Below are positions 3,924-44,594 of a stretch of DNA of 64,000 bases, piece after piece. This DNA comes from Diphasiastrum complanatum. Taxonomy: Eukaryota > Streptophyta > Lycopodiopsida > Lycopodiales > Lycopodiaceae. The position numbers and the translations under genes were made by a program. Positions within the stretch are counted from its first letter, which is position 1. The number at the start of each line of letters is the position of its first letter. The stretch is from NCBI GenBank assembly GCA_029204225.1, contig MU831934.1:32120-96119 (forward strand), read 5' to 3'. The notes below the pieces were generated by a model. That model had not been told where the DNA came from. It did not search any database and saw nothing but the letters and a program-made list of their open reading frames with translations.

Positions 3924-6288
3924 ATGTGGAACGATCAACACCTTCTTGCTCCAGGGCAGCTTTCGATCGGACAAAGAATTTCAAAGTCTGCACCATGTTC
4001 TCCTTTGAAACCTCTCATCCCGAAAAGAATTTCGTCTCGTCCAGATGCGTTTCACGTCATACACAAAGTACCTGTCGGGGATTCTCCATACGTGAAGGCA
4101 AAACACGTTCAGGTTAGAATCATCACTCTCCCTTTACATCAACTATCAGGCAGCGAACAAGAAAGCAGTATCGGTTGTCCAGTTTTTATGCGATTGAATT
4201 TTCGTCGTGATCTGCTAAACGGATTTGTTTGTTGCTGGTAGCTGGTGGATAAGGATCCGGAGAAGGCTATTGCCTTGTTTTGGGCTGCCATCAACGCGGG
4301 AGATAGGGTGGACAGTGCACTAAAAGACATGGCCATTGTCATGAAGCAGCAGAACCGACCAGAAGAAGCCATAGAAGCTATTAAGTCTCTTCGCAGTCGC
4401 TGCTCTGATCAAGCACAGGAATCGCTGGATAATGTCTTACTTGACTTGTACAAGGTAGAAACTAAGAACACTGGCGCTACGCACATGTTCGTGAAGAGTT
4501 ACATTTTATGGTTGAAATGGTTGTATTACAGCAAAGATCTTCGATGTATATGATATTTGACTTATTCACTTGTTCAATTGATTATTACAGAGGTGCGGAC
4601 GATTGGATGATCAAATAGCTTTGCTCAAGCACAAGCTGAACCTTATTCACCAGGGATTGGCATTCAATGGCAAGCGAACTAAGACAGCTCGCTCCCAAGG
4701 CAAAAAGTTTCAAGTATCTATCGAGCAGGAAGCCACTCGTCTCCTGGTAATTTATCAGATTCAACGTGTTTGTTTCTTTTTGTTTCTTTTCGATACTTTC
4801 AGTTGCTTTTAACGAGATTTTTAACCGGTGTTTTTATCATAATTCTGGTTTCTTTATGTACAGGGGAACCTAGGATGGGCCTATATGCAACAAGCAAACT
4901 ACGAGGCTGCAGAAGCAGTTTACAGGTATATATGGTCGATAAAACATGATCTGTTCCATCTCTTCCTGGGAATGTATTGTCTTTGAAATGTGCTTTAGTC
5001 CTTCGGCTGATACATCTTTGCTCGTTTTTGCAGGAAAGCATTGTCAATCGAGCCCGACAACAATAAAGTGTGCAACCTAGGGATTTGTCTCATGAAACAA
5101 GGCAGGCTAGAAGAGGCAAAAGCCATGTTGCAAAGTGTCACTCCGGCCTGCTCAGACAGCCGCTGGGGATCGGACTCCCATCTGAAGTCCTATGAACGCG
5201 CTCAGCAGATGCTGCTCGAGATGGAAAATTCCAGCAATTCAGCCGTCGATTCTCTACAAACCAATTCGTCCCTTGCTTGGTCCTCGCTCTCCGGGTTGCC
5301 TGTGCAGATTCCCCTCGAACGTCATCTGAACCTTAAAAACCACGATGTACCGTTTCCTTCAAATTCTATCCAATCTTCTACTTTGGATCATTCCATGTTC
5401 TCGACTTACGTCGATGCCTGGGATGATGAAGAAGGAGACAACGCCTCTGCAGATGAAAACATCAATACCAACAACATACAAGGAAATGTTAATCCGGTTC
5501 AAGAGCCGCAGATACATTGGAATCGAGAGCATAAACTGGAGAACGTGCGTAAAGAGAAGTGGGAAGATCAGAATCAGATTTCTCACACTGCTCGATGTCC
5601 TCCGTTGCAGCAACAAAATAGCCATGACCTCACTGAGGCTTCTCCCTTCACCTTGCACGCTATGCCAAAGTCCACACTGCAATCAAAAACGGATAATAAT
5701 GTTTTCTCTCACTCAGCAACGGCAACAGGATTTCGAGACAACCAAGAAAGGCTACCTCTGGCTTTTGACAGGACAAACAACTACTCGGTCAAAGCAGCCA
5801 ACGCATCTCCTCTTGTTCTGTCAGGGCTTTCAAAAGGTAACTCCAAAACGCTCCCAGTAAAACCAGAGCACTGGAGAGCCTCAACACTCCAGGAAAACAA
5901 ACCATCACCAAGAAGGATTCTCACTTTCGACTCCAGCAATACCAGTTTTCCTATTAATGCAGTCGGTGGGACTAATTCAACTGGAGGTATGACTAGCACC
6001 GCTCTTGTTGAGGACGTGATGGAGGAGATGACCAAAAAAAGCTTGGAAGATCTTGGATTTGTTGATACTTCTGACGCAGATATGGCATTCCCGCAACCCA
6101 TTTCAGTGGGTATCACTGCGAAGACCGTAGACAACGATCTACAGAGCCTGTCAAGCGATCTGCTTCTCGCCTCACAGACATCTTCAATGGATCTTGAGAG
6201 GAAATACCGCCGAAGGCTGCAGGTTTTCCTGGATATGACCATGCCAGCTAGCCAGCCACCAGCAAGTATAAATTTTCCAATCTTGTAA
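3924..6288 (+). CDS. TPR protein of the MS5/TDM1/SDI family, five exons
   Basis: Exons are 3924-4112, 4242-4454, 4591-4746, 4864-4925 and 5034-6288. Every intron is GT-AG and the joined frame is open for 624 codons. The protein begins MWNDQHLL, carries SAPCSPLKPLIPKR and then the family signature FHVIHKVPVGDSPYVKAK. Residues 64-134 (DPEKAIALFWAAINAGDRVD...) and about 187-245 (GNLGWAYMQQANYEAA..., NNKVCNLGICLMKQGRLEEA) form TPR-like helical pairs. The C-terminal 380 residues are acidic and serine-rich, ending near RRRLQVFLDMTMP. Known relatives are Arabidopsis MS5/TDM1, which ends meiosis through the APC/C, and SDI1/SDI2 of sulfur metabolism. The length and long tail fit the MS5/TDM1 side better (inference). 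The ATG at 3924 is chosen because the family N-terminus follows it directly. The stop overlaps a perfect GTAAGT at 6285-6290. Confidence 0.93.
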
Positions 6289-10039: not shown

Positions 10040-11392
10040 CTGTCATCCCCTCTTTCGAGCAGTCCGTTCTTACTCCTCTCCACACCACTTCTCTCACACC
10101 TCCCACCTCTCCCCTGAAAGCTACCGAGGGCTACAACCGTTGCCTGATGACGCATTTGTGCAAACAACGTATGCAACATCGCCTGATCATGCTGACCCCA
10201 CCGCATCTGACGGCATGCAATCACTAGAAAAGCTGATTGAAGACGGCGACACAATATTGGTCGTCCGGGCTACATCACAACAAGCCCCTACTAGCACCAC
10301 CATATCGGCCGGTCCCACAGACATTTCAACAACCTACCAAATCTTGGGCACATTTGTCTAGGAGGCGGTAGCCACAAGAACAAAAATTGGACGACCGAGT
10401 ATTGGAGTTGGCCACAAGTAATACCCAGCTGCGGGCATAAATCGGCCAACTCCAGCAAGATCTGCTGATTGCCCAACAACACGAGCAAGTAGAGAAATCC
10501 GAAGTGCAGAAACTCAAAAATCATGAAGCCAATCTCCAAGGGTACATCACGGCCTTCTCAAAGTCTACCATGGATGCTCAGTTGAAGCTCCAAGAGATCC
10601 AGCAGTAGCTCACACAACATCTCACTCCACTCCAGACACAACTCTCAATGTTGGAAATAGAAAACCTATGCATGGGAGCGGAAGTGACAACCCTATAAGC
10701 AGAAAAGATGGCCTGGCTCACACAACCCACACCTACCAATAGACCACTCAACCAAGCTGAGGTGGATCTCCTCACAAAGTAGGTGTAGGTGGACAACGAC
10801 AAATTTGCCAAGTACTAGGCTAAGTTTGACAATTACCGACACGAGGCAATGCAGGAGTTAGCACAGGCAAAGAATGCCTTGAAGGCGTGCCAGAAGCACA
10901 TGGAGCAGCAGCCTCAACTGGCCCCTGTTGTGATTCCACCGCACCAATCAAATACATTGCCACCCCCAGCTCCAACCAAGACAAGGGAAAACAAGCAGAG
11001 GGACTAAATGTACAAGATCAAGGCTCAGATGTAGCCGACGCTAGTGATCAAGACCTAAGCCAAGGAATAGATCTGAGCCAAAGCCAAGAAGAGTGCCAAG
11101 CCTCCACAACTCAAGGCTCGCGATCCGTATCTGCCAGCTGTGTTTTTCGTCGAGCGAAGTCCATGGAAAAGAAAATTAACGAATTCTTAGCCAAACATCT
11201 CCATGACTCCTTACGAGGCGGCTAGCAGATATCTTTTTATGCCCAAACAATCAAGGGCAACGAGCTGAAAGCTCTTCCCACACTCCAATCACAAATAGAG
11301 TGGCGCCAACAACTCTTCGAGCGAGACCCTACGGCCATCAGGGCCTATGTGACAAGTCCACGCCAATTGAGGATGAATGTGCATTTCCTCCC
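10040..11392 (+). pseudogene. Coiled-coil repeated ORF, copy 1 (5' part)
   Basis: I do not recognise the family. The translation has a proline-rich start, a PLPDDAFVQT block, LEKLIEDGDT, then a long heptad-rich stretch (LELATSNTQLRA, LQQDLLIAQQHEQ) and a charged tail near FFVERSPW-type and WRQQLFERDPTAIRAY sequence. It matches copy 2 at 38,580-39,416 block by block: LPDDAF, NLIEDN, LHLATSNTQLRAELTKLQQE, LLIAQQHEQ. At least seven in-frame stops or frame changes break it, several where copy 2 has Gln. A Copia element is inserted at 11,393 and the frame resumes at 15,689. It may be the gag-like ORF of an uncharacterised mobile element or a dispersed gene family; nothing visible decides this. Confidence 0.65.
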
Positions 11393-12190
11393 TGTCGTAA
11401 AACGGTGGTCATGAGCGCAACAGAGGCTCGGTTACTCAGAGCGTTGGCTTGTAGGAACGGAAACGCAACAGTTAGTAGCAGAAATATTCAAGTAGAAAAA
11501 TTCATACAGTTTGCACAAACTAACGACACAGTAGTGAGACAACAATTCCACTCTGATAAAAATCAACAATGAGTACAATGGCTTGAAGTAATAACTTTAG
11601 CTTGTTGAGCGTGATAACGCTGGCTACATATAACTTTGATTGGAGTAGAAATTCCCAAAAATTAACACTTACATAGCTTGATTCAACTAATATAGAGATT
11701 TACAAGAGAGAAAATATCTTACAAGCCTTTAAGGCTATTTATGCCAATTTTTGCATATGTACAAAAGTTGGTAACCGTCAACCGCCTTTGGGATATTTGT
11801 TTGTCCAGCTGTTTTTAGGGTTACTCATAAGTTGATGAAGTCGGTCAACCAAAAATACGAGAAAAAACAAAAAAGGCAAAAGTGCCTTAAAAATGATTTC
11901 TAAGGTATTCTGGCCACTTGGCCAATGTGTCGCATTTTTTTGCTAAGGAGCGAAAAAGACGAAGGTGCCTTTAAAAATGATTTCCAAGGTATTATGGCCA
12001 CTTGGCCAGAGTGTCGCATTTTTTGCTAAGGAGCGAAAAAGGCAAAGGTGTCTTAAAATGATTTCTAAGGCATAGAAAATCTCAAAGGAAAAAAATGTGA
12101 AGGCTTAAAAATATGTTGTCGGCCTTTGGTTTTTCAGGATGCTCATTACTTGAACAATTTGTTTGAAGGCTGAGCATAAGAAATCTAACA
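11393..12190 (-). repeat. 3' LTR with internal 83-bp repeats
   Basis: The LTR holds about two and a half tandem copies of an 82-84 bp unit, with AAATGATTTC recurring at about 11,891, 11,975 and 12,057, each followed by GGCCACTTGGCCA-type and GTGTCGCATTTTTTGC sequence. The matching LTR at 14,892-15,688 has the same repeats, with a small extra duplication that stretches one period to 93 bp. Confidence 0.85.
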
Positions 12191-12197
12191 CTCCCCC

Positions 12198-14879: not shown

Positions 14880-14891
14880 GCTTTGATACCA
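14880..14891 (-). promoter_or_regulatory. Primer binding site
   Basis: The minus strand reads TGGTATCAAAGC directly inside the 5' LTR. It has one mismatch to the TGGTATCAGAGC seen in the other Copia elements here. Confidence 0.75.
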
Positions 14892-15688
14892 TGTCGAAAA
14901 ACGGTGGTCGTGAGCGCAGCGGAGGCTCGATTACTCAGAGCTTTGGCTTGTAGGAACGGAAACGCAGTAGTTAGCAGCAAAAATATTCAAGTAGAAGAAT
15001 TCATACAGTTTGCACAAACGAACGACGCAGTAGTGAGACAAAAATTGCACTCTGATAAAAAAACAATGGCTTGAAGTAATAACTTTAGCTTGTTGAGCAT
15101 GATAACGCTGGCTACAGATAACTCTGATTGGAAAAGAAATTCTCAAAAATTAACACTTACATAGTTTGATTCAGCTAATATAGAGATTTACAAGAGAGAA
15201 AATATCTTACAAGCCTTTAAGGCTATTTATGCTAGTCTTTGCATATGTACAAAAGTTGGTAACCGTCAATCGCCTTTGGGATATTTGTTTGTCCAGCTGT
15301 TTTTAGGGCTACTCATAAGTTGACGAAGTTGATCAACCAAAAATGCGGAGAAAAATGAAAAAGACGAAAGTGCCTTGAAAATGATTTCTAAGGTATTTTG
15401 GCCACTTGGCCAGTGTGTCGCATTTTTTGCTAAGGAGCAAAAAAGACGAAAAAGTCGAAGGTGCCTTTAAAAATGATTTCCAAGGTATTCTCGCCATTTG
15501 GCCAGTGTGTCGCATTTTTTGCTAAGGAGCGAAAAAGACGAAGGTGTCATAAAATGATTTCTAAGGCATAGAAAATCTCAAAGGAAAAAAAAAAGTGAAG
15601 TCCTAAAAATATGTTGTTGACCTTTGGTTTTTCAGGATGCTCATTACTTGAACGATTTGTTTTAAGGTTGAGCATAAGAAATCTAACA
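14892..15688 (-). repeat. 5' LTR of the 11,393-15,688 element
   Basis: About 797 bp, starting TGTCGAAAAACGG and ending ATCTAACA. It is highly similar to the 3' LTR over its whole length, including the GGCCACTTGGCCA repeat block. Confidence 0.88.
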
Positions 15689-15802
15689 CTCCCCTACACA
15701 CACGATGATCTAAATGGGTGTACTGCGGCACTCCCTTGGACCAGATCACGATCCATAATTGCAATTGGCCAAGTATTCCTTCTGAGTACGGATGAACCTT
15801 AA
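15689..15802 (+). pseudogene. Coiled-coil repeated ORF, copy 1 (3' part)
   Basis: If the element and one CTCCC duplicate are removed, the plus-strand frame that breaks at 11,392 continues without shift as YTHDDLNGCTAALPWTRSRS and runs to TAA at 15,800-15,802. This gives the true C-terminus of the family and confirms that the retrotransposon inserted into this ORF. Confidence 0.7.
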
Positions 15803-17748
15803 TGCCCGTTATAAATGGTCATTTAATGGGTCCAAATCATTGGACATAGATTTTGAAAGACACGCGCTCTGTTCAGATAAGGGGATAAAGTAGTTCCAAT
15901 TTTTGGTGAAAAATATGTTCATTTTTTGAGGAGTTTTTTATGTGAATACTGATTGTGGATATCGTGAATACTGATCATGAATATTGTGAATATTGATCGT
16001 GAATATTGATCGGGACTATCTTGAATATTGATCTCTTAATCTTCAACAAGTTCAAAGACAAAGTATAAGTTTTCCAAAACGTTTGATGAAATTGACAATT
16101 TGTGTTTGGTACAATCTAAAGCATCTTATTAAATGATTGAAAATAGCCAAGAAACAAGAAAAACTATTAGTCCAATGCATTTATTCCGAGATCAAGCCGT
16201 GCATCCCGATACTAGAAGTGGCTTATTTGTCGGTCAAATTTGGGTGAAGTATGAGTAGTACAACTATATACAAAAAATCTTTGAAATTTGATTTGATTGA
16301 CGAAAGTGGCAATGATACAATCACTCTTTGTTGACAAAAATTATTTTCACAAGTATATATATTTGGAATTATTTTTATTGTATTTCAATTAGAGATTTTG
16401 GGGTGGTTGATAAAAATTTGAAGGGTGAAGGAAGAATCTCAAATTATACTCTCATTTTACAACCATCTACAACAATTCAACACTTATTTGAAATTTTTTT
16501 CCAAGAATAATCTTCAAAAGTTGTAGGAAAATTGCAAGAAAATCATACAACAGAATCTTGGAAGAAATGAGCTCGCATTGCTAGCAACATGAGCTATTAC
16601 AATAATTGAAGTTGGACAACATTATTCATACTAACTCTTAGGCCAAAATGGGCCAATAATTAAAATGGAAAATGTATACATGTTAAGCTAATGTAGAGGG
16701 GCTTTTGGCCTAAATGATTATGAAGGTTGAGTACGTGTTTGTATAAGATTTTATGCGAATTAATATTCTTGGTGGGGTCATTGTAAGCGATTGCAATTTG
16801 CATGTAAGGTCAAAATGTTAAAAAGGTCCTATAGTATATTTAGCAATGTAAAGATTGATGCATTAGGATTAAGAAAAAGTCATTTTCGGGTTTGTTATTA
16901 AGGCAGTCGAAGAGTCATTCTCAATTATTAACATGATGACCAAAAAAAAGAGAAATGACTTGGAGACCCATTTTTTTTAATTTTTTTTAATTTTTTTTTT
17001 AAAGTAAAATTTAAAATGCTTCAAATAAATATATTGTAATGTTAAAAAAATGTTGTATTTTGCAAGAAAATAATTCAAGCTACAAAAATTTGGTCAATAG
17101 ATTTTCATAAATAACTTAAAATTAGCTTATACCAAATAATAATACTATTCAAAATAAAATCATTAGATACACAACCACTAAAATAACTAGAAAATACTTT
17201 TTGTTTATTTAAAACAAAAGTTATAGCTTTTTTTTTTTGAAATTTTAAAAGTTTTTTAAATTATAATTCTTGTATCAAAAAAAAATATTTTTTAAATTAT
17301 GATAAAAATTTTAATCAATATTTTTAAAAGTTTTAATTTTTTAAAATATCTACTTATATCTACATAAGCTCATTGAATATTTAAACATTAGATAAATGCA
17401 AATGAAATTACTTTACAATAATCGAGATTAAATGATTTGCAAAAATATTTAAATCACCCTAAAAAAATCTTTTCATTTTTTAAAATTTTCAACAATATTT
17501 TTTTTTTACAAAAAATACTATAAAAACACATCCAGAATAAAAATATTATAAACTTGACAAATCGTTATAATTTTAATTTTTGATAATGATTATCAATGTT
17601 AAAAATTTTAAAATATTTCAAATTCTTAATTTTAAACCATTAAAAAACAAATTTAAGAACATTAAATCAATCAAAAAGATTTCAAAACACAATACATCAA
17701 AAAATATAAACGCAATTATTTTTCAAAACAAAAGAGAATTTTTTATTC
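15803..17748. other. AT-rich spacer
   Basis: No gene is supported. Bases 15,941-16,034 hold a degenerate short tandem repeat (GTGAATATTGATC-like units). Bases 16,960-17,740 are extremely AT-rich with long A and T runs; lysine/asparagine-rich open frames there are compositional. The stretch may include one end of the methyltransferase-bearing unit, but I found no terminal repeat. Confidence 0.5.
15941..16034. repeat. Degenerate GTGAATATTGATC tandem repeat
   Basis: Six or so imperfect copies of a 13-bp unit that varies between GTGAATACTGATC and TTGAATATTGATC. Confidence 0.7.
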
Positions 17749-18401
17749 TCAAAAATCATCGAGGTCATTTACATCTTTTTCTTTTTCTTGAGTAGCTGCT
17801 GTACTTTCAAGTGGCACCTCTTCTACAATTTTCTCGACTACTGTAACCACATTGTAATCTTGAACCAAGACATCAGCAAATTCTCCTGTGTCGCCTACTT
17901 TTTCGCTAGCAGGAGGCTAAGGTTCCTTGGACAAGGGAATTATTGTATCCTCGCTATCTAAACTCTTTCTCATCTCAGATAGTTCATCTAGCAAAATTGA
18001 AAGAGATTTCATTCTCATTTTTACAAAATCAACTAAATTAGTATCTAGATCTACTATAGCAACATGTCTGCCTTTCTGAACAGCACATGCGCTTGTAGTG
18101 CCGCTACAGCTAAATAAATCCAAAACCCAATCAGCTGGGTGTGAAAAAATGTCAATTAAATGATTAATTAATTGTTGTGGCTTTTGGTAGGGACAAGCCA
18201 CGAAACCCGTCATTGGATTTTTTAATTTTTTCGTCACGGTTGGATACTGGAACAAGTTTGCAAAACTTGTCAGTTTGGAAGTGCTGTAATGAAGCATCGA
18301 ACGTTTGCCATCCAAAGAATAATAACCGATGGTTATGTATTTTATTTCATTACAAGTAAAATATTTTATGTATGTCGTACTCCTCTCGAGTTCTTGAAAT
18401 T
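17749..18401 (-). pseudogene. N6/N4-type DNA methyltransferase-like gene, 3' part
   Basis: The minus strand reads from 18,401 to a TGA at 17,749-17,751, with one internal TAG near 17,918 (a likely CAG to TAG change). The sequence KPQQLINHLIDIFSHPADW followed by VLDLFSCSGTTSACAVQKGR resembles the QKP and S-adenosylmethionine-binding (F-x-G-S-G-T-T) motifs of beta-class N6-adenine/N4-cytosine DNA methyltransferases. The first glycine of the loop is Cys here. The DPPY/SPPY catalytic box would lie upstream and is not visible. A retrotransposon (18,402-22,979) splits the gene; the coding frame continues at 22,980. The C-terminal tail is acidic and valine-rich. This class is uncommon in plants, so a mobile or transferred origin is possible (inference). 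Confidence 0.6.
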
Positions 18402-19104
18402 TGTGAAAGTACTGTACTTTAGGACCATAAATGGATCTACAAAAGATCCACAAGAGTGATTGGATGCTTGCTTAACAATCTATCAAAAAACTAGACACAA
18501 AAAAGTTGATCTAGATTGGCAATTTAACAAACAACAAGCATTAACAATCAAAAGCATTGATAAACATTGAGATCCGAGCCCACACGTGTGTACTATAGGC
18601 TATACTACGGCCTTCAACCTGAGAAACAAGTAGAAATTGATTTGGTTTCATTTGGATCACAAAAACTCAATGTACATAGTGAACTAGCTTGAGATTGCCA
18701 ATAAGCTCCAAAAAAAATTTCTATCTTCTCACTATGGAGAGAGGGAATACATAGCAAATTCGACTTCCTTCTTGAAGTTAGGTGGATTTCCAGCATGTAA
18801 TAAGGAAGTTAACTCACTCTCCTTGACCTAAAATGAAACCCTAGTCTATTTCCTAGAGTTATGCTTGGTAGGTAGCTAGTTGGTCAAATTTTCACCTTAA
18901 ACTTAGGTGTAGGTCCTATAAAGTAGGTATGACCACCAAATAGACATGACCAACTCTCTTGACTTGACCTAACCTACATTAGGATGGGTTTCCCATGTGG
19001 CATCATGGCCTCACATGTGTGGGACCCACTTGTGTACACAATTTACACTATTCTACATGGTTTTTGATCAAGCTAGATTTGCCAATTTTTGGCAATTCTT
19101 CACA
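18402..19104 (-). repeat. 3' LTR of the gag-only element
   Basis: 703 bp. It contains the palindromic CACACGTGTG motif near 18,581 and closely matches the 22,277-22,979 copy. Confidence 0.9.
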
Positions 19105-19314
19105 CTCCTCCTCAAATTTAGCTTGATCTATTTACAATTCTCTTGATAGATGAATGAAATCTTTTAGAAGTGTCTAAAAAATCCAGCTACAAACAAGGAA
19201 CTTTTGAGACTCCAATAGAGAATGATGTCCATGAAGGACCTTTCACCACCTCTTAGAGGATCCCTTACAAGATGTTCCATAAATGTGTCTATATACATGT
19301 AGCACACTTCAAAA

Positions 19315-21471
19315 CTAAACATCATGCCAAGCCATGGATTCCAAGGCATTTTGTGCACTTGAAGATACATCAATTAAAATATTAAGTGCATAAATAATGT
19401 TGCCAAAGACAACTTGTCTTGCTTGATCCATATGATTGAGCCTAGATGGCTCCATCTTGATACTCAAGGTTTTTCTTGGAGTCCTCGGGTCTTGAGCTTG
19501 CTCCTCCACTTGACTTGACTCCAGACCATCAATGAATTTAATAAGGTGTTGATCCAAAGGTGCTTCTTCAAGTTTACAAATCTTCCACTCTTGAAAGATC
19601 ACATTTCCACCATTGACAAATTCTTTGGTTGAAAACAAGTAGATTCTACAATCTCTACTTGAAGAGCAAAACACTACCATTATTCCTATCATTGAAATAG
19701 GATAATCTTTGGTCCTTACATTGGAATGATCATGCACAAAGCATGTGGACCCAAAGATTTCCAATACAAATGATATTTCATCTTTTATGACACTATTCAA
19801 ACTATTACAAAAATAGTTATCCAATGAAATTGCTTTATCAACAACAAATGTAGATTTCAAAGCATCACATTTCATTGTCTTTTCATACAAAGTAATAAAC
19901 ACCATGAATCTTAAAGGTAAGAAACAAGTCACCTCATGTCTACTAATACTTTCCAAAAAGTATTCAGAAATAGTAGACTCTCCAATGCTCACCACCCTTG
20001 CAAGATGCACACTTGAATGGACAATTTGCATGCAATTTGATGACTCGGACATTGTCATTGAGGACTCCCTTGGAACTCTCATGCTTTGAGGCTGATCCTC
20101 AAAATCTTCCTCCTTTTGATGCTCCTCCTCAATGCAAGCAAGATCACACTTTGCCAAGATCTCCTCTTGAGTGATCTCCTCCTTTGCCAAGCTCATTCTT
20201 TCAAAAGCAACACTAGCTTCCAACTTAAACAATCTTCCATGTTTAAATCCCTTTGCAATGCAAACATCATTCTTCAAGATGAAGCAAACACCATGCTGAA
20301 AGTGGACATCCAAACCACTTTCTAAGAGTAGACCAACACTAAGCATATTCTTGGTGATTGATGGTACATAAAGGACATTTTCTAGATCCATGCATTTTGA
20401 GGATTCTAGACACAAAGAGATGGTGCCAACACCATTTGTCCTACACTCTTCATCATTTGCAGTAAAGCCAAACTTTTTAGCATCATTGAATGAGTGTAAT
20501 GTTGAGAAAAAGTCCTTTTCACAAGACACGTGGGAGCTAGCCCCACTGTCAATCCACCAATTGTCTCTTGAATTGCTATTGCTTGTTGGTGAGGATGTAG
20601 ATGCCATCAAGAATACATCTACTTCATCCTCCTCCCCCTCCTTTGCAAGGTTTCCTTGTTTGTCCTCCTCCACTTGTGCTCTTAGCCTCTTGTAACATTT
20701 AGATGCATAATGCCCCTTCTTTCCACAAAAGAAGCATTTTTGCTTTGACTTGTCCTTTGAGCTTGATGCATCATCCTCTTCTTTGGCCTCCTTTGGATGC
20801 TTCTTCTTTCCATTGGTCTTCTTTTTGCCCTTGAATGAGAAATTGGCTTTCTCATCACCATCCTGCAACGACAAGGAACTCATCCTAGATTTTGCATGGA
20901 GCATCTTACACTCTTCAGCCACTAATACACTGTGAAGTTTTTCTATAGTTGGCAAAGTGTCTTGGATGGCAAAACTTTGGACCAAATTTGCAAAGTCATC
21001 TCCTAGACCATTAAGGACAATTTGTACAAGCTCTCCATCATGAATCTTCTCTCCAATGGAAGCCAACTCCCTATTTAGAGACTTGATTCTGAGTACATAA
21101 TCCTGTGCACTCTCCTCACTTCTCCTCATGCTTTGCAAAATTTGATTTCTAAGCATAAGAACTCTAGAAGTGTTGCTAGACTCGTAGATTGATTTTAAAG
21201 ACTCCCAATCCTCTTTAGCATTAGTACAAGCTGATACTTCTCTCAACAAATCATTGCTCACATTCATCTTCACACAATGAAGTGCAAGCCTAGATCTCTT
21301 CTTGTATCTAGCTAACTCCTGTGCACCTAGAGGTTCATCTTCATCTTCAATCAAGAACTCATAAAGGTCTTGGAGCACTAAGAGTGACTCCATTCTAACC
21401 TTCCAAATAGCATAATTTGTAGAATTCAACCTCTCACTAGCTTCTAGAAGGTATGCTCCAGCAGATCCCAT
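19315..21471 (-). CDS. Gag-protease protein with integrase remnant, 718 aa
   Basis: An uninterrupted ORF from ATG at 21,471 to the stop at 19,315. Residues about 1-200 are Copia gag (LNSTNYAIWKVRMESLL, then RVLMLRNQILQSMRRSEES). A CCHC zinc knuckle, CFFCGKKGHYASKC, lies at 246-259 and the protease active site, WWIDSGASSH, at about 305-314. From about 420 the order of a normal element is lost. There is an acidic stretch and an unrecognised region, then only the C-terminal integrase core-flanking sequence (FGSTCFVHDHSNVRTKDYP and FVNGGNVIFQEW). The integrase catalytic core and all of reverse transcriptase/RNase H are missing. The intact frame, in an otherwise decayed region, suggests recent mobility with enzymes supplied in trans. 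It is related to the gag at 56,216. Confidence 0.88.
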   Translation of the reverse strand: MGSAGAYLLEASERLNSTNYAIWKVRMESLLVLQDLYEFLIEDEDEPLGAQELARYKKRSRLALHCVKMNVSNDLLREVSACTNAKEDWESLKSIYESSNTSRVLMLRNQILQSMRRSEESAQDYVLRIKSLNRELASIGEKIHDGELVQIVLNGLGDDFANLVQSFAIQDTLPTIEKLHSVLVAEECKMLHAKSRMSSLSLQDGDEKANFSFKGKKKTNGKKKHPKEAKEEDDASSSKDKSKQKCFFCGKKGHYASKCYKRLRAQVEEDKQGNLAKEGEEDEVDVFLMASTSSPTSNSNSRDNWWIDSGASSHVSCEKDFFSTLHSFNDAKKFGFTANDEECRTNGVGTISLCLESSKCMDLENVLYVPSITKNMLSVGLLLESGLDVHFQHGVCFILKNDVCIAKGFKHGRLFKLEASVAFERMSLAKEEITQEEILAKCDLACIEEEHQKEEDFEDQPQSMRVPRESSMTMSESSNCMQIVHSSVHLARVVSIGESTISEYFLESISRHEVTCFLPLRFMVFITLYEKTMKCDALKSTFVVDKAISLDNYFCNSLNSVIKDEISFVLEIFGSTCFVHDHSNVRTKDYPISMIGIMVVFCSSSRDCRIYLFSTKEFVNGGNVIFQEWKICKLEEAPLDQHLIKFIDGLESSQVEEQAQDPRTPRKTLSIKMEPSRLNHMDQARQVVFGNIIYALNILIDVSSSAQNALESMAWHDV

Positions 21472-21501
21472 CTTACTAGTGACTTCTACAAACAAGAAAT
21501 A

Positions 21502-21846
21502 GATTTGATTGACTTGAAACTCACAAAGGTCTCACACTTGCAGTGTTTCACTCAAATTTGATTTCTAATCCAACAAATGGACTTATAAGCACAGTTCTAT
21601 CACTCCCTCACAAAGCTGGAATGAAGATAAGATGAAGTGAAAACTACTTTCAAACAAATCTTGCCAAGAAATGGATTTGATTGTCTCTAGAAACTCACTA
21701 AGGTCTCTCTCTTGTAGTTTTTCACTCAAATTAGATTTCTAATCCAACAAATGGACTTATAATCTCAATTCCAGCACTCCCTCACAAAGTTGGAATGAAG
21801 ATAAGATGATGTGAAATCTACTTACAATCAAATCTTGCCAAATTTG
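21502..21846 (-). repeat. 172-bp tandem duplication in the element leader
   Basis: Between gag and the primer binding site, a block starting GATTTGATTG recurs with a period of about 172 bp (21,502 and 21,674). Both copies hold CTAATCCAACAAATGGACTT and a conserved TCCCTCACAAAG stretch. The rest of the leader to 22,264 has no coding frame. Confidence 0.8.
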
Positions 21847-22264
21847 GCTATTTTTGGACAAAAAAATGACTTAATCTCTTTCTTCCTTCTTGGTGTACTT
21901 TCAAGACCTGTTTTTAACCTTAATAGGACTTGGACTCAGCCTAGATTAATTAGATTCCATGAAACAAATTCAAATCTAATCAATGGCAAATGATCTTGGT
22001 AGATTATCCTAGAATCTCCACCAAAAATTACACCAATAGCTCACAAATTGAATTTTTTTGGATCAAATGAATACCATGCATTAAATGCAGGTTTAGAGGT
22101 GCCCACACATGTGGACAGTACGGATTTGGACCCCTACCAAGTTTGGGATCAAATCTCCTCACCAAAATCAAGATTCTAACTTGCCCTCTCAATACTAGCT
22201 TTTAGCACCAAAACTTGCTAAAAATGGATTTGCATTAGATCAATGGCTTATGCTCTTGTACTTG

Positions 22265-22276
22265 GCTCTGATACCA
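22265..22276 (-). promoter_or_regulatory. Primer binding site
   Basis: The minus strand reads TGGTATCAGAGC and abuts the TG that opens the 5' LTR. Confidence 0.85.
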
Positions 22277-22979
22277 TGTGAAAGTACTGTACTTTAGGAC
22301 CATAAATGGATCTACAAAAGATCCACAAGAGTGATTGGATGTTTGCTTAACAATCTATCAAAAAACTAGACACAAAAAAGTTGATCTAGATTGGCAATTT
22401 AACAAACAACAAGCATTAACAATCAAAAGCATTGATAAACATTGAAATCCGAGACCACACGTGTGTACTACAGGCTGTAGTACGGCCTTCAACCTGAGAA
22501 ACAAGTAGAAATTGATTTGGTTTCATTTGGATCACAAAAACTCAATGAACATAGTGAACTAGCTTGAGATTGCCAATAAGCTCCAAAAAAATTTTCTATC
22601 TTCTCACTATGGAGAGAGGGAATACATAGCAAATTCGACTTCCTTCTTGAAGTTAGGTGGATTTCCAGCATGTAATAAGGAAGTTAACTCACTCTCCTTG
22701 ACCTAAAATGAAACCCTAGTCTATTTCCTAGAGTTATGCTTGGTAGGTAGCTAGTTGGTCAAATTTTCACCTTAAAGTTAGGTGTAGGTCCTATAAAGTA
22801 GGGATGACCACCAAATAGACATGACCAACTTTCTTGACTTGACCTAACCTACATTAGGATGGGTTTCCCATGTGGCATCATGGCCTCACATGTGTGGGAC
22901 CCACTTGTGTACACAATTTACACTATTCTACATGGTTTTTGATCAAGCTAGATTTGTCAATTTTTGGCAATTCTTCACA
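22277..22979 (-). repeat. 5' LTR of the gag-only element
   Basis: 703 bp, near-identical to the copy at 18,402-19,104. Confidence 0.9.
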
Positions 22980-23260
22980 ACATTGAGCTTGTACCTGACA
23001 TGAAACATTACAAGTAAAATAAATTTAAAATTTTAACTTTAAAATAAAAATTTTAAAATAAATTATGAATTAAAATACAAATTAATAATTCAGAAAAAAC
23101 TTACCACACAGCTTACAAAGACAGATCATAAGTTGAAGGTAGAGTTCAACAATAAGAAGTGTCAAATCAAGGACGTGAAACAGGGAGCAACAAGCCTAGA
23201 AAGTAACTGGTTGATTAAAATTTCCAGTGGCTAACATGTCTTAAATATTGTTTGGCAGCA
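22980..23260 (-). pseudogene. Methyltransferase-like gene, 5' part
   Basis: The minus strand just beyond the LTR (VQAQ) joins in frame to FQELERSTTYIKYF on the other side of the inserted element, once one target duplicate is removed. A candidate splice acceptor (CATGTCAG) lies immediately upstream. A candidate upstream exon ends at about 23,107 with a GTG/GTAAGTT donor; its only open frame reads FHVLDLTLLIVELYLQLMIC, which I cannot match to a methyltransferase motif. The frame is poorly supported and this part may be partly non-coding. Confidence 0.4.
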
Positions 23261-23326
23261 TCCTTAGAGTTAGGATTGACCCAAGAGTAGGTTTAGGGTC
23301 AAGGTCGGCGTGAGGTGAGGTGATTC

Positions 23327-23385
23327 GTGACAACTCAGTCCCGATACAAGCTGTGAGTTGTGGCAACTCGGTCCTGACGCAAGCT
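23327..23385. repeat. 33-bp-period imperfect duplication
   Basis: GTGACAACTCAGTCCCGATA... at 23,327-23,352 recurs as GTGGCAACTCGGTCCTGACG... at 23,360-23,385. Confidence 0.7.
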
Positions 23386-23681
23386 GGAGGTCTCGAGGGT
23401 CCTATGAGGCGGGGGTCTCGAAAAGAAAATTATTTAAGGACCATAGTCCAAGCATAACTCACCTCATCTGCGAATTCAGAAGCACACATGCTGCCAGAGC
23501 TCTCGCTACGACAAAGTCACGGCTTTCTATAGGATATTGCATACGTGCTCACTCACAGATTTTTTGACGGTAAGATTATTGTCATTTTTTAACTTTGTTC
23601 TATGCTTAGCATGGGTATTAAATTATTGCATTAGTAAATATTCATGTTTTAATTAGTATTCATCTTCTTCAAACTAGGGTG

Positions 23682-24124
23682 ACCTATGCTCAACATAGGT
23701 GGTTGCACGAGTCCTCTCTACTAACCTATGCCGAGCATAGATTGTGTTCGGGTCCTTAGTAACAACCTTTGCTCAACATAGGAAGCCGGCGGGATTTTTC
23801 TATTCTTACCTACTTGCTAACCTATGCTGAGCATAGGTTGCATCTCTGGTCCTCTTCTAACCTATGCTCAACATAGGTTAGCAAGCAGATTGCGAATACA
23901 TCCTATGCTGAGCATAGGTGGGACTAGAGCGCGCGAGTAACGACCTATGTTGAGCATAGGTTGCATCTCTGGTCCTCTTCTAACCTATGCTCAGCATAGG
24001 TCATCACTCGCATGCTCTAGTCCCAACTATGCTCAGCATAGGATGTCTTCGCAATCTACTTGCTAACCTATACTGAGCATAGGTTAGAAGAGGACTAAAG
24101 ATGCAACCTATGCTCAACATAGGT
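23682..24124. repeat. Array of 11 regularly spaced 19-bp palindromes
   Basis: Near-palindromes of consensus ACCTATGCTNAGCATAGGT start at 23,682, 23,724, 23,765, 23,820, 23,860, 23,901, 23,943, 23,983, 24,025, 24,066 and 24,106. Nine of the ten intervals are 40-42 bp, about four helical turns; one is 55 bp. The 21-23 bp spacers are themselves repeated in mirror order about 23,972. The array lies between the minus-strand methyltransferase-like gene and the plus-strand transposase-like gene. Its role is unknown; subterminal transposase sites or a shared operator are possible. Confidence 0.93.
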
Positions 24125-24354
24125 CGCTACTCGTGTTTTTCCTGTTTTACAAGACTTAGTCTGAGAAAAGTGATACTTTTGAGATGTTTTTGTAAGAAAA
24201 TGTGTTAAATTTTTAGTTTTGATTTTTAAAGAATTTTTCACAAAAACTGCTTGTCTTATTAAAGTTTTCAGTATTTTCATTCGGGTAGTGATTTAAATTT
24301 TTTTAAAGAATCTTTTTCTTTGCGGATTTTCAATTGTCTTTGATAATTTTCGAA

Positions 24355-26560
24355 ATGTCGAGGATATCTTTCAAAATTTTGGATAAACCTCAAGATATTC
24401 CACTGAAAGATATAAAGAAAGTCATGTATTACTTCACTAGAGGGGTCAACAACACAAAGATATTTTCACTTGTCGGATAATTTTACAAAATTCAAAATAT
24501 TTTTGATGTACAAAAAGTTTGCCAAACAAAAAATATTCCCTATTTGAGTTACTCATATTTTCTTAGAATTTGAAAAAGAGATTTTGGACTGGTAAAGATT
24601 TCCAAAAAATCACGAATGACAGTATGCTCCACTTGCGAGTTGTTAAAGTCTGCAAAACAACTTGCAAAGACCAATGACGAGAAAGTTAAATATTAATCAA
24701 ATTTGTCATTCATTTTAATACTTTTTGTTTTGAAAAAATTTATGTTGCAGTCTTTTTGAATATCATTATGGTATGATCTTTATTCTATTAAATAAGTGAA
24801 TCATTGTATTTTCAATGGATGCTGCAAAAGCTCTTCAACTGCACAAAGATCAACAAACAGTTGAAAGACAAAAATTGGCCAAGCATCGAAAGAAATGTTT
24901 GGAATGTCCACAAAAATATCTGGGCCTTGTTATTGATGGCATGGATCAGAAGAAAACTATGTTGTTCATTTTGTCAGACTGCCCAAAAATTTGAACGAGG
25001 CAGATTTTATTCAGGTTCATTTCGTTGAAGCACTTGTGTTTAATGGCACTTTGGAGTCCAAGGTCTTTTTTAATTATCCCAATGTTCGAAATAATCCAAA
25101 TTTGACGATCACCATTGTACATAAGATAATTTGCGAATTTGGTGAAACTCTTCCATAAATACTTTATTTGCAACTTGACAACACTGCTAGGGAAAATAAA
25201 AACCAAATTGTTTTTGCATACTTGTCCATGCTAGTGGAGAAATTTTTTTCAAAAAAATAAAAATAGGATTTTTGTTGGTAGGATATACCCACGATCAAAT
25301 TGGTCAAATGTTTAGTTGCTTTTCTAAGAGGTTGAGACGCAAAAAAGCATTTTCTTTACCAATACTTCAAAGCATTGTTGAGGAATCATATGTGCCAAAG
25401 CCAAACGTGTCATTAATCATACACACATATGATTTTTGTTATTATGTTAAGGCGTCCAATGAAACAGAGCGATGAGTAGCTAATATTAATGATATTAGCT
25501 TTCAGCACCAGTTTAAAATCAAATGTTACGAATCAGACATTATATTATTATGGGGCAAACTATTTTCAAATTCAGTTTCATGGCTACCTCTTGAAGGAGT
25601 TCAATTTTTGCTTAACATTCCATCGACTCAAATCGAGCTTGCTGTGTTGTCTCCCTTGAAGTCCTTGCTAGAAGAACAAAAGGCGCAAAGAGAACATCGT
25701 GACATTGATCCATTTGCCTCATTAAATTTTTTGGAATCAAGTATTCAAGCAATTTATCATTTTTTTGATGAGTTTGATCAACATTGGTGGATGGACTTTT
25801 TCGAGGAACAAAAAATCAGTTTGCTCAATTTCGAACATACATCAACAACTCAAGAATTTCATTGGCCTCATAAATTAGGAACATCAACTACAACTGTCGA
25901 ACCTTCAGATCTTTCTCGAAATAATGATTTCTTGCAGCTTGTGCAAGGTGAGGAACGTGAAATTTATGTGGGCTCAAGGAAGAATAGGCAAAGTGTAAAA
26001 GCTGCAAAATGAAATGGCGCGGTGATTTGAATGAAATCCAAATTGGAAGCCTTGTTGCACTTCTAGCTTTAGAAAACAATGAAGGACATCCATTTTGGAT
26101 AGTACTTGATTTTATTCAAAATAGCAATCAAACAAAAGTACTACGTGTCCATTAGTTGTGCACCACTTCAACGAATGCTTTTTTGGGAAGGTACGAACTC
26201 GAAATGTTGCAAGTAGATCCAAAGGGCAAGAGAAAGAGATTGCCAAAAAAATCAACCAAGAGTCGATGATTTGAATCTACAGGATGTACATGTTTTGGCA
26301 TTTAATTTTGAATTAACAATGACCAATCATCTACGAAAGTCCACTATATCTATATTGAAAGAATGACTTGGATTACTGGAAAAACCATCATCCTCCACTC
26401 GTCATCAACAGAGAAAAGCTGATTTACAAGGTTTTTTTGTCAACATTAGACGTGGATTCTTAGGAAGATATGCCAATTGACTCTGATGAAGAAGACGGGT
26501 CTTCCACTTCATCAGCCGAAAACGAGAGTGTTGAGAATATGTCAAGTTCTTAATTGAGAG
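24355..26560 (+). pseudogene. Transposase-like (DUF7869-like) gene, decayed
   Basis: Candidate start ATG at 24,355 (MSRISFKILDKPQDIP). The plus strand then gives, across several frameshifts and stops, a Cys pair (VCSTCELLKSAK, about 24,620) and KYLGLVIDGMDQKKTML (about 24,915). Further on come VFFNYPNVRNNPNLTITIV, LYLQLDNTARENKNQIVFAY (about 25,160), then VGYTHDQIGQMFSCFSKRLR (about 25,275), and a C-terminal part containing LSPLKSLLEEQKAQ and FFDEFDQHWWMDFF (25,608-26,012). Conserved Asp residues in IDGMD, LDNT and THD resemble RNase H-fold DDE domains, and the set resembles the domain catalogued as DUF7869. The function of that family is not established. The second Asp position in HIDQ-type motifs is Gly here. 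Divergent neighbour: the methyltransferase-like gene. Confidence 0.6.
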
Positions 26561-26569
26561 GCATCAGTG

Positions 26570-27630
26570 AAAATTCCTTGGAAAATGTACTTTAAAAAAA
26601 AGAATGTGCAAATATAATTTAAGTTGTTATGTATTTCAATGGGATTTCGAGTTTCAAAAATCATTTGTTCTCTTGAATTATTATTTCATGTGTAATTATG
26701 ATGGTTTTATGAAGTTTGCAATAAAAAACTTGTAGTTCTTTATTTAAAATATGCATTTTTTGGCTTTTTTTTAAAAATAAAATTTAGAGATTTACTAAAA
26801 AAATCCGTGATTTTGGCCTAAAACTAGGACTATTAAAAAACACCAAAAAAGATTACTCTTTTTGAGGTCAAAGTCCCAAAACAAATGTCATTGTTTATTT
26901 ACAAAAGTTTATTCGATCTCAAATGAACGCAAACAAGGCAGTTGCGGTACTTTGTGAGTTTACTAAGCTTGTTTGCAATAAGTTGAGTTTGTGTACAAAT
27001 AGGACAACTTCAAGTGAAGTAGGGGTTGTTGCTGATTATTGAATGTCATATCATTTACATTTGATGATCAATAAAGGGGTGAGAGCCAATCGATTATGCG
27101 GTGTCTTACAGACTCTAATGTTTGCGTTGTAGGCAGCGATAAGCATATGCCTTGCTTAAGAACTTTTGAGCAGTAGCAACTAGAGGTTGTGTTGTACTCT
27201 GTATTGTGTTGAGCTGTAATAATTGTATCACGGATTTATTCCGATCATGGTGTTGTTGGGTTGTTGTAAATGATGTATTGTTTATTTCTACAATACTGTT
27301 TATTCCCATTGCATATTGTAGGATTATGTTTATATGTATTTGGCTACAACGGTGTATTCTAAAATCCTGTAATGGGTAAGGTAGTTAGGCGTTAATTTTA
27401 TCCCCTAAAGGCTAATACTTTTTTGGTTCTGTTTGCTGGCTAGTTTCGGTTTGAGTTGTGAATCTGGATAGCAATAACTTCCAGTTGTGAGTTGAATTGT
27501 CATTGGTTGCTGAGAATTTGACACAGATGTCTTCTGGAGCCAGTACTTAAGATCCATGACGTACTAGAGTGCTTCGCAAAATGGACGTCATATCTGTGGG
27601 ACGCACTTGCGCGACGACGTGCCAATGCTT
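26570..27630. other. Spacer
   Basis: AT-rich, no supported gene. The unit carrying the transposase-like gene probably ends in this stretch, but no terminal inverted repeat matching the 17-kb side could be found by eye. Confidence 0.45.
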
Positions 27631-34123: not shown

Positions 34124-34902
34124 TGTTGCGGGAGCGCGTGCGTGGGACTGATTCATGTTCGTCCTCACTTCGTCTTCTTTATCGTGAACAATTTTCTGTC
34201 TTTTAATTTTCTTTCGTGCGGAAGCCCTTACAGGATCCCAGACACTCGACTACCCATCACAGAACATATTCTATTCTAGCAAACATGATCCACAGCACAA
34301 GACAAAATGCACAAAAATAGAGTGACTGAATTATCAGTTTTAGTTTAGAGTGAATTCGTCAGTGTCTCGCTCGTTGGCGGAATGACATTCTACTCTTTCG
34401 CTGTGTTCTGCTCGTTGGCAGACTTTCATGCACAGCTATGGTGTCTTTTCTTTCTTACTCTATTCGTTGTGTCTCTCTCTGTCTCTTATAGATATATGTA
34501 TACACTACCTGTATTCACTTCTTACTTTATGATCCAAAGAGGATCGTTTATACCTCCACTATGTGAAGTTTACAAGATAGCTAAACATAGAATCACATCA
34601 CTAGTTAACTACTGCTAGTCAACTAGTTAGTTAGTTTGTGTCATTGCTACTCGTTTTAGCTGGGCGTTGAGCTGCTAGCTGGCAGCGGGAAAGATTTTCC
34701 TTCGTCTGTTTCGTAATCCCCTGTTTGCTTTCGTTCTTCTCGTAGTTTTCGTTTCGAGTCCCTTTTTCAGCTTTGCGGTCCTGGAGGGGTGTTTGCGATT
34801 CGCGATTGATTTGCGAATCCTTCGTGCTTCGAGTCAAAGTCACGTTGACTTTGTGTCTTGTTCGTGCTGCCACAAAGCTGCATGAGTTCACCATTTCTGA
34901 CA
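34124..34902 (-). repeat. 3' LTR (779 bp)
   Basis: TG at 34,124 to CA at 34,902. It shares nearly all its length with 37,782-38,512. Confidence 0.85.
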
Positions 34903-37781: not shown

Positions 37782-38512
37782 TGTTGCGGGAGCGAGTGCG
37801 TGGGACTGATTCGTGTTCGTCCTCACTTTGTCTTCTTTATCGCGAACAATTTTATGTCTTTTGATTTTCTTTCGTGCGAAAGCCCTTACAGGATCCCAGA
37901 CACTCGACTACGCATCATAGAACATATTCTATTCTAGCAATCATGATCAACAACACAAGACGAGATGCACGAAAATAGAGTGACTGAATTATCAGTTTTA
38001 GTTTAGAGTGAATTCGTCAGTGTCTCGTTCGTTTGGCGGAATAACATTCTACTCGTGTTCTGCTTGTTGGCAGACTTTCATGCACAGCTATGGTGTCTTT
38101 TCTTTCTTACTCTATTCGCTACGTCTCTCTCTCTGTCTCTTACAGATCTTTGTATACACTACTTGTATTCACTTCTTACTTTATGATCCAGAGAGAATCG
38201 TTTATACCTTCATTATGTGGAGTTTACAAGATAGCTGAACATAGAATCACATCACTAGTTAACGCTAGTCAACTAGTTAGTTAGTCTGTGTCATTGCTAC
38301 TCGTTTCAGTTGGGCGTGAAGCCCGTTGAGCTGCTAGCTGGCATCGCAAAAGATTTTCCTTCGTTTGTTTTTTAATCTCCCGTTTGCTTTCGTTCTCTTC
38401 GTAGTTTTTGTTTCGCGTCCCTTTTTGGGCTTTGCGGTCTTGGAGGGGTGTTTGCGATTCGTAATTGATTCGCGAATCGTTCGTGCTTCGAGTCAAAGAC
38501 ACGCTGACTATC
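37782..38512 (-). repeat. 5' LTR, outer end lost
   Basis: It matches the 34,124 LTR up to the motif GTGCTTCGAGTCAAAG. Beyond that a 50-bp imperfect tandem copy of that motif (about 38,480-38,580) leads into unrelated sequence. Confidence 0.8.
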
Positions 38513-44100: not shown

Positions 44101-44594
44101 CATATATTTATATATATAGATTCTCATATATCTTTTGATTTGGCATGCATGCCTGCCTGACTGCGGTGGAGGCACAGCAATGAAGCATAAGCGAACTATT
44201 CTTTGTTTCATCGTCTTCTCGAAAACAACTAATCGACAGACCTCTGCGGGGAGGCTATCAGGTCCGCCTGTTTCTTCTGTTGATTTTGCTGTGCTTACAA
44301 TGGTTTTGAAGAAGAATTTACAATGTTTTGCTGTTCCATCATTTTCTTTTTGTTCAGTGATGCACTTTACTTGTGATAGTCCAAATAAGATTCAAGACAT
44401 TTCCCATGTTCTTTTGTTCTCAGCTTTAGGGTTGAAGGATAAGGCCTCAGACATTTCCCACGTTCTTCTGTGTATTTTTGTGTGTTTATGAGGGTCTGAT
44501 GGTAGAATATAGAGGGTTTGGCTGTTTATTCTTTTTCTTTTCTGTGCTAATGTTGGTCTTATGCTACAATAACAAGTTCAAATGGAGTTAAGAC
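44101..44594 (+). promoter_or_regulatory. Probable promoter and 5'UTR of the PPR gene
   Basis: TATATTTATATATATA at about 44,101-44,120 could be the TATA element. A 50-bp segment at 44,396-44,445 (GACATTTCCCATG...) is repeated at 44,592-44,641 with three changes. One of them, T to G, creates the ATG used as start. A third partial copy follows at about 44,451. Confidence 0.4.

Follow-up and report, generated by a model that had tools for sequence, protein, structure and literature searches.

A mirror-symmetric palindrome array between the divergent genes of a putative Sola-1-like transposon in a lycophyte genome

CACTA/Spm elements are two-gene plant DNA transposons with multiple short TnpA sites in their subterminal regions, and the CACTA/EnSpm group is marked by a CACTA terminal repeat and a 3-bp target duplication. 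In bacteria, the ParB-parS system pairs palindromic sites with a dimeric protein. According to PMC5735166 and PMC10398659, the noncoding DNA of Arabidopsis VANDAL transposons is packed with a short motif bound by an element protein, VANC, and this binding leads to loss of host DNA methylation. The VANC motifs, YAGTATTAY and AGTTGTCC/AC, occur in one orientation and are family-specific, and the word stem 'palindrom' is absent from both texts. The main text of PMC12477816 describes Sola1-1_Ec32, a 21.5-kb Sola-1 transposon of the brown alga Ectocarpus that has an N4C/N6A DNA methyltransferase gene on the strand opposite its transposase, the 1104-aa protein having a ParB-like domain. ParB-like/methyltransferase proteins are reported there for algal transposons; in the authors' suggestion, they may attach to the very transposon that encodes them and modify it epigenetically. 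In that main text 'palindrom' does not occur, and the part on these proteins names no target sites.

Here we describe an array of palindromes in a transposon of Diphasiastrum complanatum. Like Sola1-1_Ec32, the element has an N4/N6 DNA methyltransferase gene divergent from the gene for its presumed transposase, a DUF7869 protein; unlike it, the element resides in a plant genome, is about 9 kb long, occurs in many copies and has a candidate site array. Sola1-1_Ec32 has a ParB-like domain, whereas the resemblance to ParB here is by eye only. As in VANDAL elements, a dense motif array lies in noncoding DNA (16-18 core sites in each of four elements), but the motif is palindromic, mirror-arranged and common to families (the core is 98.5% identical between families A and B and also occurs in family C). 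With CACTA/Spm the element shares many short sites and a two-gene organization in a plant DNA transposon, and differs in having the array central and promoter-proximal rather than subterminal. It also differs from CACTA/EnSpm in its termini, AACAYGATGAC, and its 4-bp target duplication. The ParB-parS likeness consists of palindromic sites and a candidate dimeric binder, although neither Pfam nor hhalign detected a ParB domain here.

Among open-licence PMC papers we found none on DUF7869, and the titles and abstracts of those that we found on plant transposon methyltransferases or palindromes, Sola elements and ParB-methyltransferase transposons describe no array of this kind. The array offers a concrete, testable candidate target for a transposon-borne methyltransferase in a plant genome, in a system that would allow testing whether a eukaryotic transposon evades silencing by bacterial-type base modification.

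The element and its copy in the window

The array belongs to a DNA transposon, a damaged copy of which occupies 16930-26895 of the window (the whole stretch analysed, 64,000 nucleotides). We defined the element by aligning the window with five loci that have motif, DUF7869 or methylase matches close together; the shared sequence runs from 16930 to about 26895. Element length is ~9.1-9.35 kb (9085 bp in L002, 9353 bp in L006). The terminal repeat has the consensus AACAYGATGAC, the ends being AACATGATGAC and, inverted, AACACGATGAC. Flanking them are 4-bp target duplications, exact in three of the five two-ended elements (L002, L007 and the window, with AGTT/AGTT, AACT/AACT and TATT/TATT), the window's TATT/TATT being counted as exact after allowing for a 2-base loss in its right end. 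The other two, L005 and L006, have one mismatch each (CGAT/TGAT and TCTA/TCCA); L008 and L009 were left uncounted because their flanks are the same as those of L002.

Two divergent genes make up the coding part: a leftward N6/N4-type DNA methyltransferase gene and a rightward DUF7869 gene, whose product is presumably the transposase. A 4-bp target duplication is a trait of Sola transposons, and the element has it, as Sola-1 does; we infer that the transposon is Sola-1-like and that the DUF7869 family (PF25273) is the Sola-1 transposase. Rough, mostly unscored genome searches gave 2953 DUF7869 candidates, 1605 methylase candidates, 490 arrays and, for the two ends, 1003 and 1183; judging by the array and end figures (490 to 1183), the genome probably holds hundreds of element copies. 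The parts of the window copy are as follows.

16926-16929 and 26896-26899: target duplication TATT, left and right, directly outside the window element ends
16930..16940, + strand: left terminal inverted repeat AACATGATGAC, the same terminus as in L002, L003, L005, L006 and L007
16930..18355, - strand: left end of the element together with the 3' part of the broken methyltransferase gene; ~87-93% DNA identity to L001-L005 in the aligned parts
about 18028-18390, - strand: PF01555 N6_N4_Mtase domain, Pfam E 8.1e-11
18356..22979, no strand: interrupting DNA with a copia retrotransposon, which splits the methyltransferase gene
22980..23110, - strand: second piece of the methyltransferase gene region (L001 2746-2883, 87%)
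23185..24459, - strand: inverted central element segment, a reverse match to L001 6016-4806
23598..23616, + strand: weak 12th site, 3 mismatches, 84 bp left of the array
23682..24124, no strand: palindrome array of 11 sites with core TATGCTNAGCATA; the whole array is a big inverted repeat
24460..26894, + strand: 3' part of the DUF7869 gene, frameshifted; DNA 93% identical to L001 and 91% to L002
about 24985-25535, + strand: PF25273 domain, Pfam E 3.8e-17 and 3.6e-18 in two frames
26887..26895, - strand: right terminal inverted repeat, decayed to GTCATTGTT instead of GTCATCGTGTT

The window copy is dead, with its centre inverted, both genes broken and a copia element inserted (300-nt repeats at 18402-18701 and 22277-22576, 98% alike). 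Segment 23185-24459 is inverted relative to L001, L002, L004 and L005 and has deletions on either side, so the array stands beside gene fragments in an order that is not the original one. Owing to this inversion, the first exon of the methyltransferase (MSRISF...) lies on the + strand of the window, from about 24357. The window array itself scores 405 against the family consensus when reversed and 296 when forward. The inversion perhaps arose via recombination at the large palindrome.

Sites of the array and their place in a divergent promoter region

By direct motif scan we found 11 palindromic 19-bp sites in 23682-24124, starting at 23682, 23724, 23765, 23820, 23860, 23901, 23943, 23983, 24025, 24066 and 24106. 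An earlier, sequence-only reading of this DNA had reported 11 copies of the palindrome at steps of about 40-42 bp. Its site count and its start-to-start distances (42, 41, 55, 40, 41, 42, 40, 42, 41 and 40) were reproduced exactly; only 2 of the 11 (23820 and 23983) are exact ACCTATGCTNAGCATAGGT, and the other nine carry 1-3 mismatches. When the window was shuffled 100 times, there were no matches to the 19-bp palindrome with up to 3 mismatches, and across the 1.74-Gb genome the exact motif occurs 1517 times and its reversed control not at all. Taken as one inverted repeat, the window array has arms at 23820-23962 and 23982-24124 that are 91% complementary. The 84-bp offset of the weak outlying site recurs in L004, L005 and L061. 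The same reading had tied the array to a flanking unit in which DUF7869 and methyltransferase-like genes occur, and Pfam together with the locus alignments bore this out.

In better-preserved copies the array lies between the two start codons. The methyltransferase start (MSRISF), found in 6 of 8 copies, lies to the left of the array, 230-237 bp from its first main site, and the DUF7869 start (MSSSS or MSTSSTS), likewise found in 6 of 8, is preceded by a core site 44-45 bp before the ATG in all six; both are open-frame starts rather than mapped transcripts. Four elements contain 17, 18, 16 and 18 core sites at up to 2 mismatches, compared with a mean of 0.475 and a maximum of 3 in shuffled elements, and three additional sites fall inside the methyltransferase gene region. 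Extrapolating from protein matches, we place the array ~200 bp from the methyltransferase start in family B (L060) and ~90 bp from it in family C (L063).

On this sequence evidence we propose, with moderate confidence, that the array is a cis-regulatory binding platform in the divergent promoter of a Sola-1-like transposon, occupied by dimers of an element protein and serving self-regulation and protection from silencing. Each 13-19 bp palindrome would bind a dimer of a single element-encoded protein, most likely the methyltransferase protein and otherwise the DUF7869 protein. The mirror-symmetric cluster of sites would then allow this protein to load densely and to influence both promoters. 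The element would probably regulate itself in this way and be shielded from the host's silencing; a possible mark is recruited adenine-N6 or cytosine-N4 methylation.

Alternatively, the array could consist of transposase-binding sites for excision, with the DUF7869 protein assembling a transposition complex as at the TnpA sites of CACTA/Spm. Palindromic sites inside a DNA transposon fit such a role, as does L007, a 7.4-kb copy that was chosen by its two ends rather than by the array and that retains the array (the deleted copies L082, L084 and L085 were not counted here, having been chosen by array). The location speaks against it. In all four elements no core site at up to 2 mismatches occurs within 2.0 kb of the left end, the first one being 2004-2262 bp away; the last core site is ~3.5 kb from the right end in three of four, and 0.99 kb in L005, which is deleted near that end. 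These distances, together with the positions relative to the start codons, put the array in the divergent promoter region rather than at a subterminal position, with one site just upstream of an ATG, and we therefore hold the excision role to be doubtful. The earlier analogy with CACTA-type elements was not supported: the terminal repeat is not CACTA and the array is in a divergent promoter. We rejected a CACTA-type subterminal array on the termini, the 4-bp duplication and the start of the core sites 2.0-2.3 kb from the left end.

Distribution and symmetry of the sites across families

Half of the 40 best-scoring array places (20/40) are within ~6 kb of listed methylase, DUF7869, left-end or right-end matches, as counted by eye against the best 150 methylase, 150 DUF7869 and 40 + 40 end matches; some of these places resemble allelic or duplicate contigs (e.g. 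C578, C2351 and C2037), so that not all are independent. Four of the remaining 20 were examined and all four are element copies, three with clear internal deletions within the 7.6 kb viewed. Among ten loci covering 5.5 kb upstream of methyltransferase matches, the main array is present in five (L054, L060-L063) and was not found in the other five (L055-L059). The element match ends before the array position in L056-L059, and the array region is missing from L055, a pattern compatible with truncation, though it also means that some such loci yield no array. Four 10-kb loci of other DUF7869 families, in which DUF7869 is present and no methyltransferase match was seen, contain 0, 1, 0 and 0 core sites (2.5 kb of one of them, L010, being N).

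This distribution bears on a further alternative, that the array is an operator or enhancer to which a host transcription factor binds and which the element has co-opted to express both genes. A core common to three families would suit a host factor, as would the failure of Pfam to recognise a DNA-binding domain in the scanned pieces of both element proteins. However, the eight exact-motif clusters sampled from the start of contig C1, a small number, comprise six that match family A and two that resemble family C, with none outside such DNA, and in our judgement a mirror array of 16-18 sites is unusual for host factors. We regard a host factor as unlikely.

The sites differ sharply from the DNA between them. 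In the family A consensus, built from 33 aligned copies among the best 40 array matches, 11 sites follow one another at steps of 41, 54, 40, 41, 42, 41, 40, 54, 41 and 42 bp; of the 326 steps between adjacent sites in the individual copies, 250 measure 40-42 bp and 64 measure 54 bp. Sites 1-10 are mirror-arranged, all five pairs having one midpoint. On average the sites are 92.7% alike, while the spacers are 45.5% alike when compared forward and 53% when the better of the two orientations is taken, shuffled spacers giving 50%. Mirror spacers, once inverted, are 66-95% alike, and the remaining spacer pairs are near random. The family B consensus (15 sequences, L060 and L067-L080, with L081 excluded for mixed orientation) has ten core sites at steps of 41, 42, 41, 42, 38, 42, 41, 42 and 41 bp, forming five mirror pairs on one common axis, and an eleventh site 97 bp further on. 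All four of its mirror spacer pairs are identical; individual copies vary, chiefly at the centre, and some have fewer sites. Family C (L054, L063, L095 and L096) keeps the core at steps that are 28 bp or irregular, and by inspection it has no regular mirror of the kind seen in A and B.

Comparison of the two consensuses, A and B, gives 98.5% identity for the 13-bp core TATGCTNAGCATA, 33% for the outer flanks and 43% for the spacers, against 42% for shuffled spacers; next to the array, the DNA of one A copy and one B copy is 63-64% identical. Judged from these comparisons, the site is the most conserved feature and the spacing is family-specific. The spacers of A and B diverge more than the neighbouring DNA, yet in both families the sites mirror one another exactly. 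Outside CG, family A copies have decayed after insertion as much in their sites as in their spacers (one-sided p = 0.91), which is what dead copies should show, so constraint can be read only within and between family consensuses. At that level, a shared core and an exact mirror set in unrelated spacers provide a clean comparative test of protein-binding constraint.

The dimeric protein that the sequence-only reading had envisaged fits sites that are alike in spacers that are unlike. Its suggestion that all sites share one helix face is partly supported: it suits the 40-42 bp steps that prevail in A and B, but not the two 54-bp steps of A or the 28-bp steps of C.

Selection for the fold itself, as cruciform DNA or as a hairpin RNA feeding small RNAs, would account for the ~413-bp dyad of family A copies, 77-82% self-complementary, and for the identical mirror spacer pairs of the family B consensus. 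Folding requires just complementary arms, yet sites that are not mirror partners are equally part of the 92.7% likeness, non-mirror spacers are near random and family C does without the regular mirror; we consider a hairpin quite improbable. An ordinary tandem satellite spread by slippage, for which the regular period and the 1517 exact motifs might speak, can be given next to no weight and was rejected, as the sequence-only reading had anticipated, since the unit of site plus spacer is not alike within an array, spacers are unrelated within and between families, and the arrays sit in element copies (20/40 by position and 4/4 of those examined from the other 20).

Candidate binder of the array and neighbouring observations

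Within the proposed platform for an element protein, we favour the methyltransferase as binder for two reasons: families that bear a methyltransferase were seen to have the motif, unlike the four other DUF7869 loci, and the array adjoins the methyltransferase start in family A and, by extrapolation, in B and C. In the METHYLTRANSFERASE, DIPYGF precedes LDLFSGSGTT within a PF01555 domain encoded by the gene divergent to DUF7869, an order that we take to denote a beta-class methyltransferase. DIPYGF is also present in L056, L057 and L059, with NISYGF in L060 and DIPYEF in L004. In NCBIfam the protein matches bacterial adenine-specific enzymes such as CcrM (E 8.8e-9, far below the curated cut-offs), and it is 24-39% identical to phage and plasmid proteins (best 8 of 16 phage and 8 of 19 plasmid records).

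The segment before the catalytic part looks ParB-like by eye. Pfam found no ParB domain in the scanned element protein pieces, and the PF02195 profile has no match in the whole genome; with hhalign, the segment scored 12.3 against a thin ParB profile of 4 sequences, where shuffles had a median of 11.6 and a maximum of 25.5. Beyond the two domains above, Pfam reported no further family above cut-off on element pieces except the retrotransposon domains of insertions. Neither predicted structure was of usable quality, the mean pLDDT being 36 for the DUF7869 protein and 42 for the ParB-like segment, and PDB sequence searches gave nothing useful.

Family A copies show transitions at 11.2% of CG, 9.9% of CHG, 2.3% of CHH and 0.8% of A/T positions, the pattern that cytosine methylation by the host would be expected to leave once an element has inserted; CG is absent from the family A consensus sites. 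A more specific version of our proposal, which we offer tentatively and by analogy, is that a captured prokaryote-type methyltransferase reads its own mirror-symmetric palindrome array in a ParB/parS-like manner and writes N6-adenine or N4-cytosine methylation on the divergent promoter against host CG/CHG silencing. If true, this land-plant transposon would encode an epigenetic system and that system's own address code.

Elsewhere in the genome, methyltransferase fragments recur at steps of about 4.4-4.6 kb, four of them on C22:12333634-12347569, and others are clustered on C24:5145209-5574622, as if part of the element had turned into a tandem repeat. A 410-bp near-palindrome upstream of another DUF7869 gene (L013 2421-2839) was considered as a parallel case and rejected: it is an unrelated, high-copy foldback repeat with ~1870 rough candidates genome-wide, and of the 40 candidates that were scored, none but L013 itself and a 99% copy at C11:48789626 has a listed DUF7869 gene next to it.

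The window also carries copia retrotransposons, and two pairs of long direct repeats (11390-12196 with 14889-15694, and 34124-34850 with 37782-38509) are each about 3.5-3.7 kb apart, an LTR-like spacing. A tetratricopeptide-repeat match at about 4864-5148 (+ strand) falls at the start of ORF 5011-6288, which is probably a host gene. At 44592-46832 (+ strand), a 746-aa ORF encodes a PPR protein with E, E+ and DYW deaminase domains, a class of proteins that acts in organelle RNA editing.
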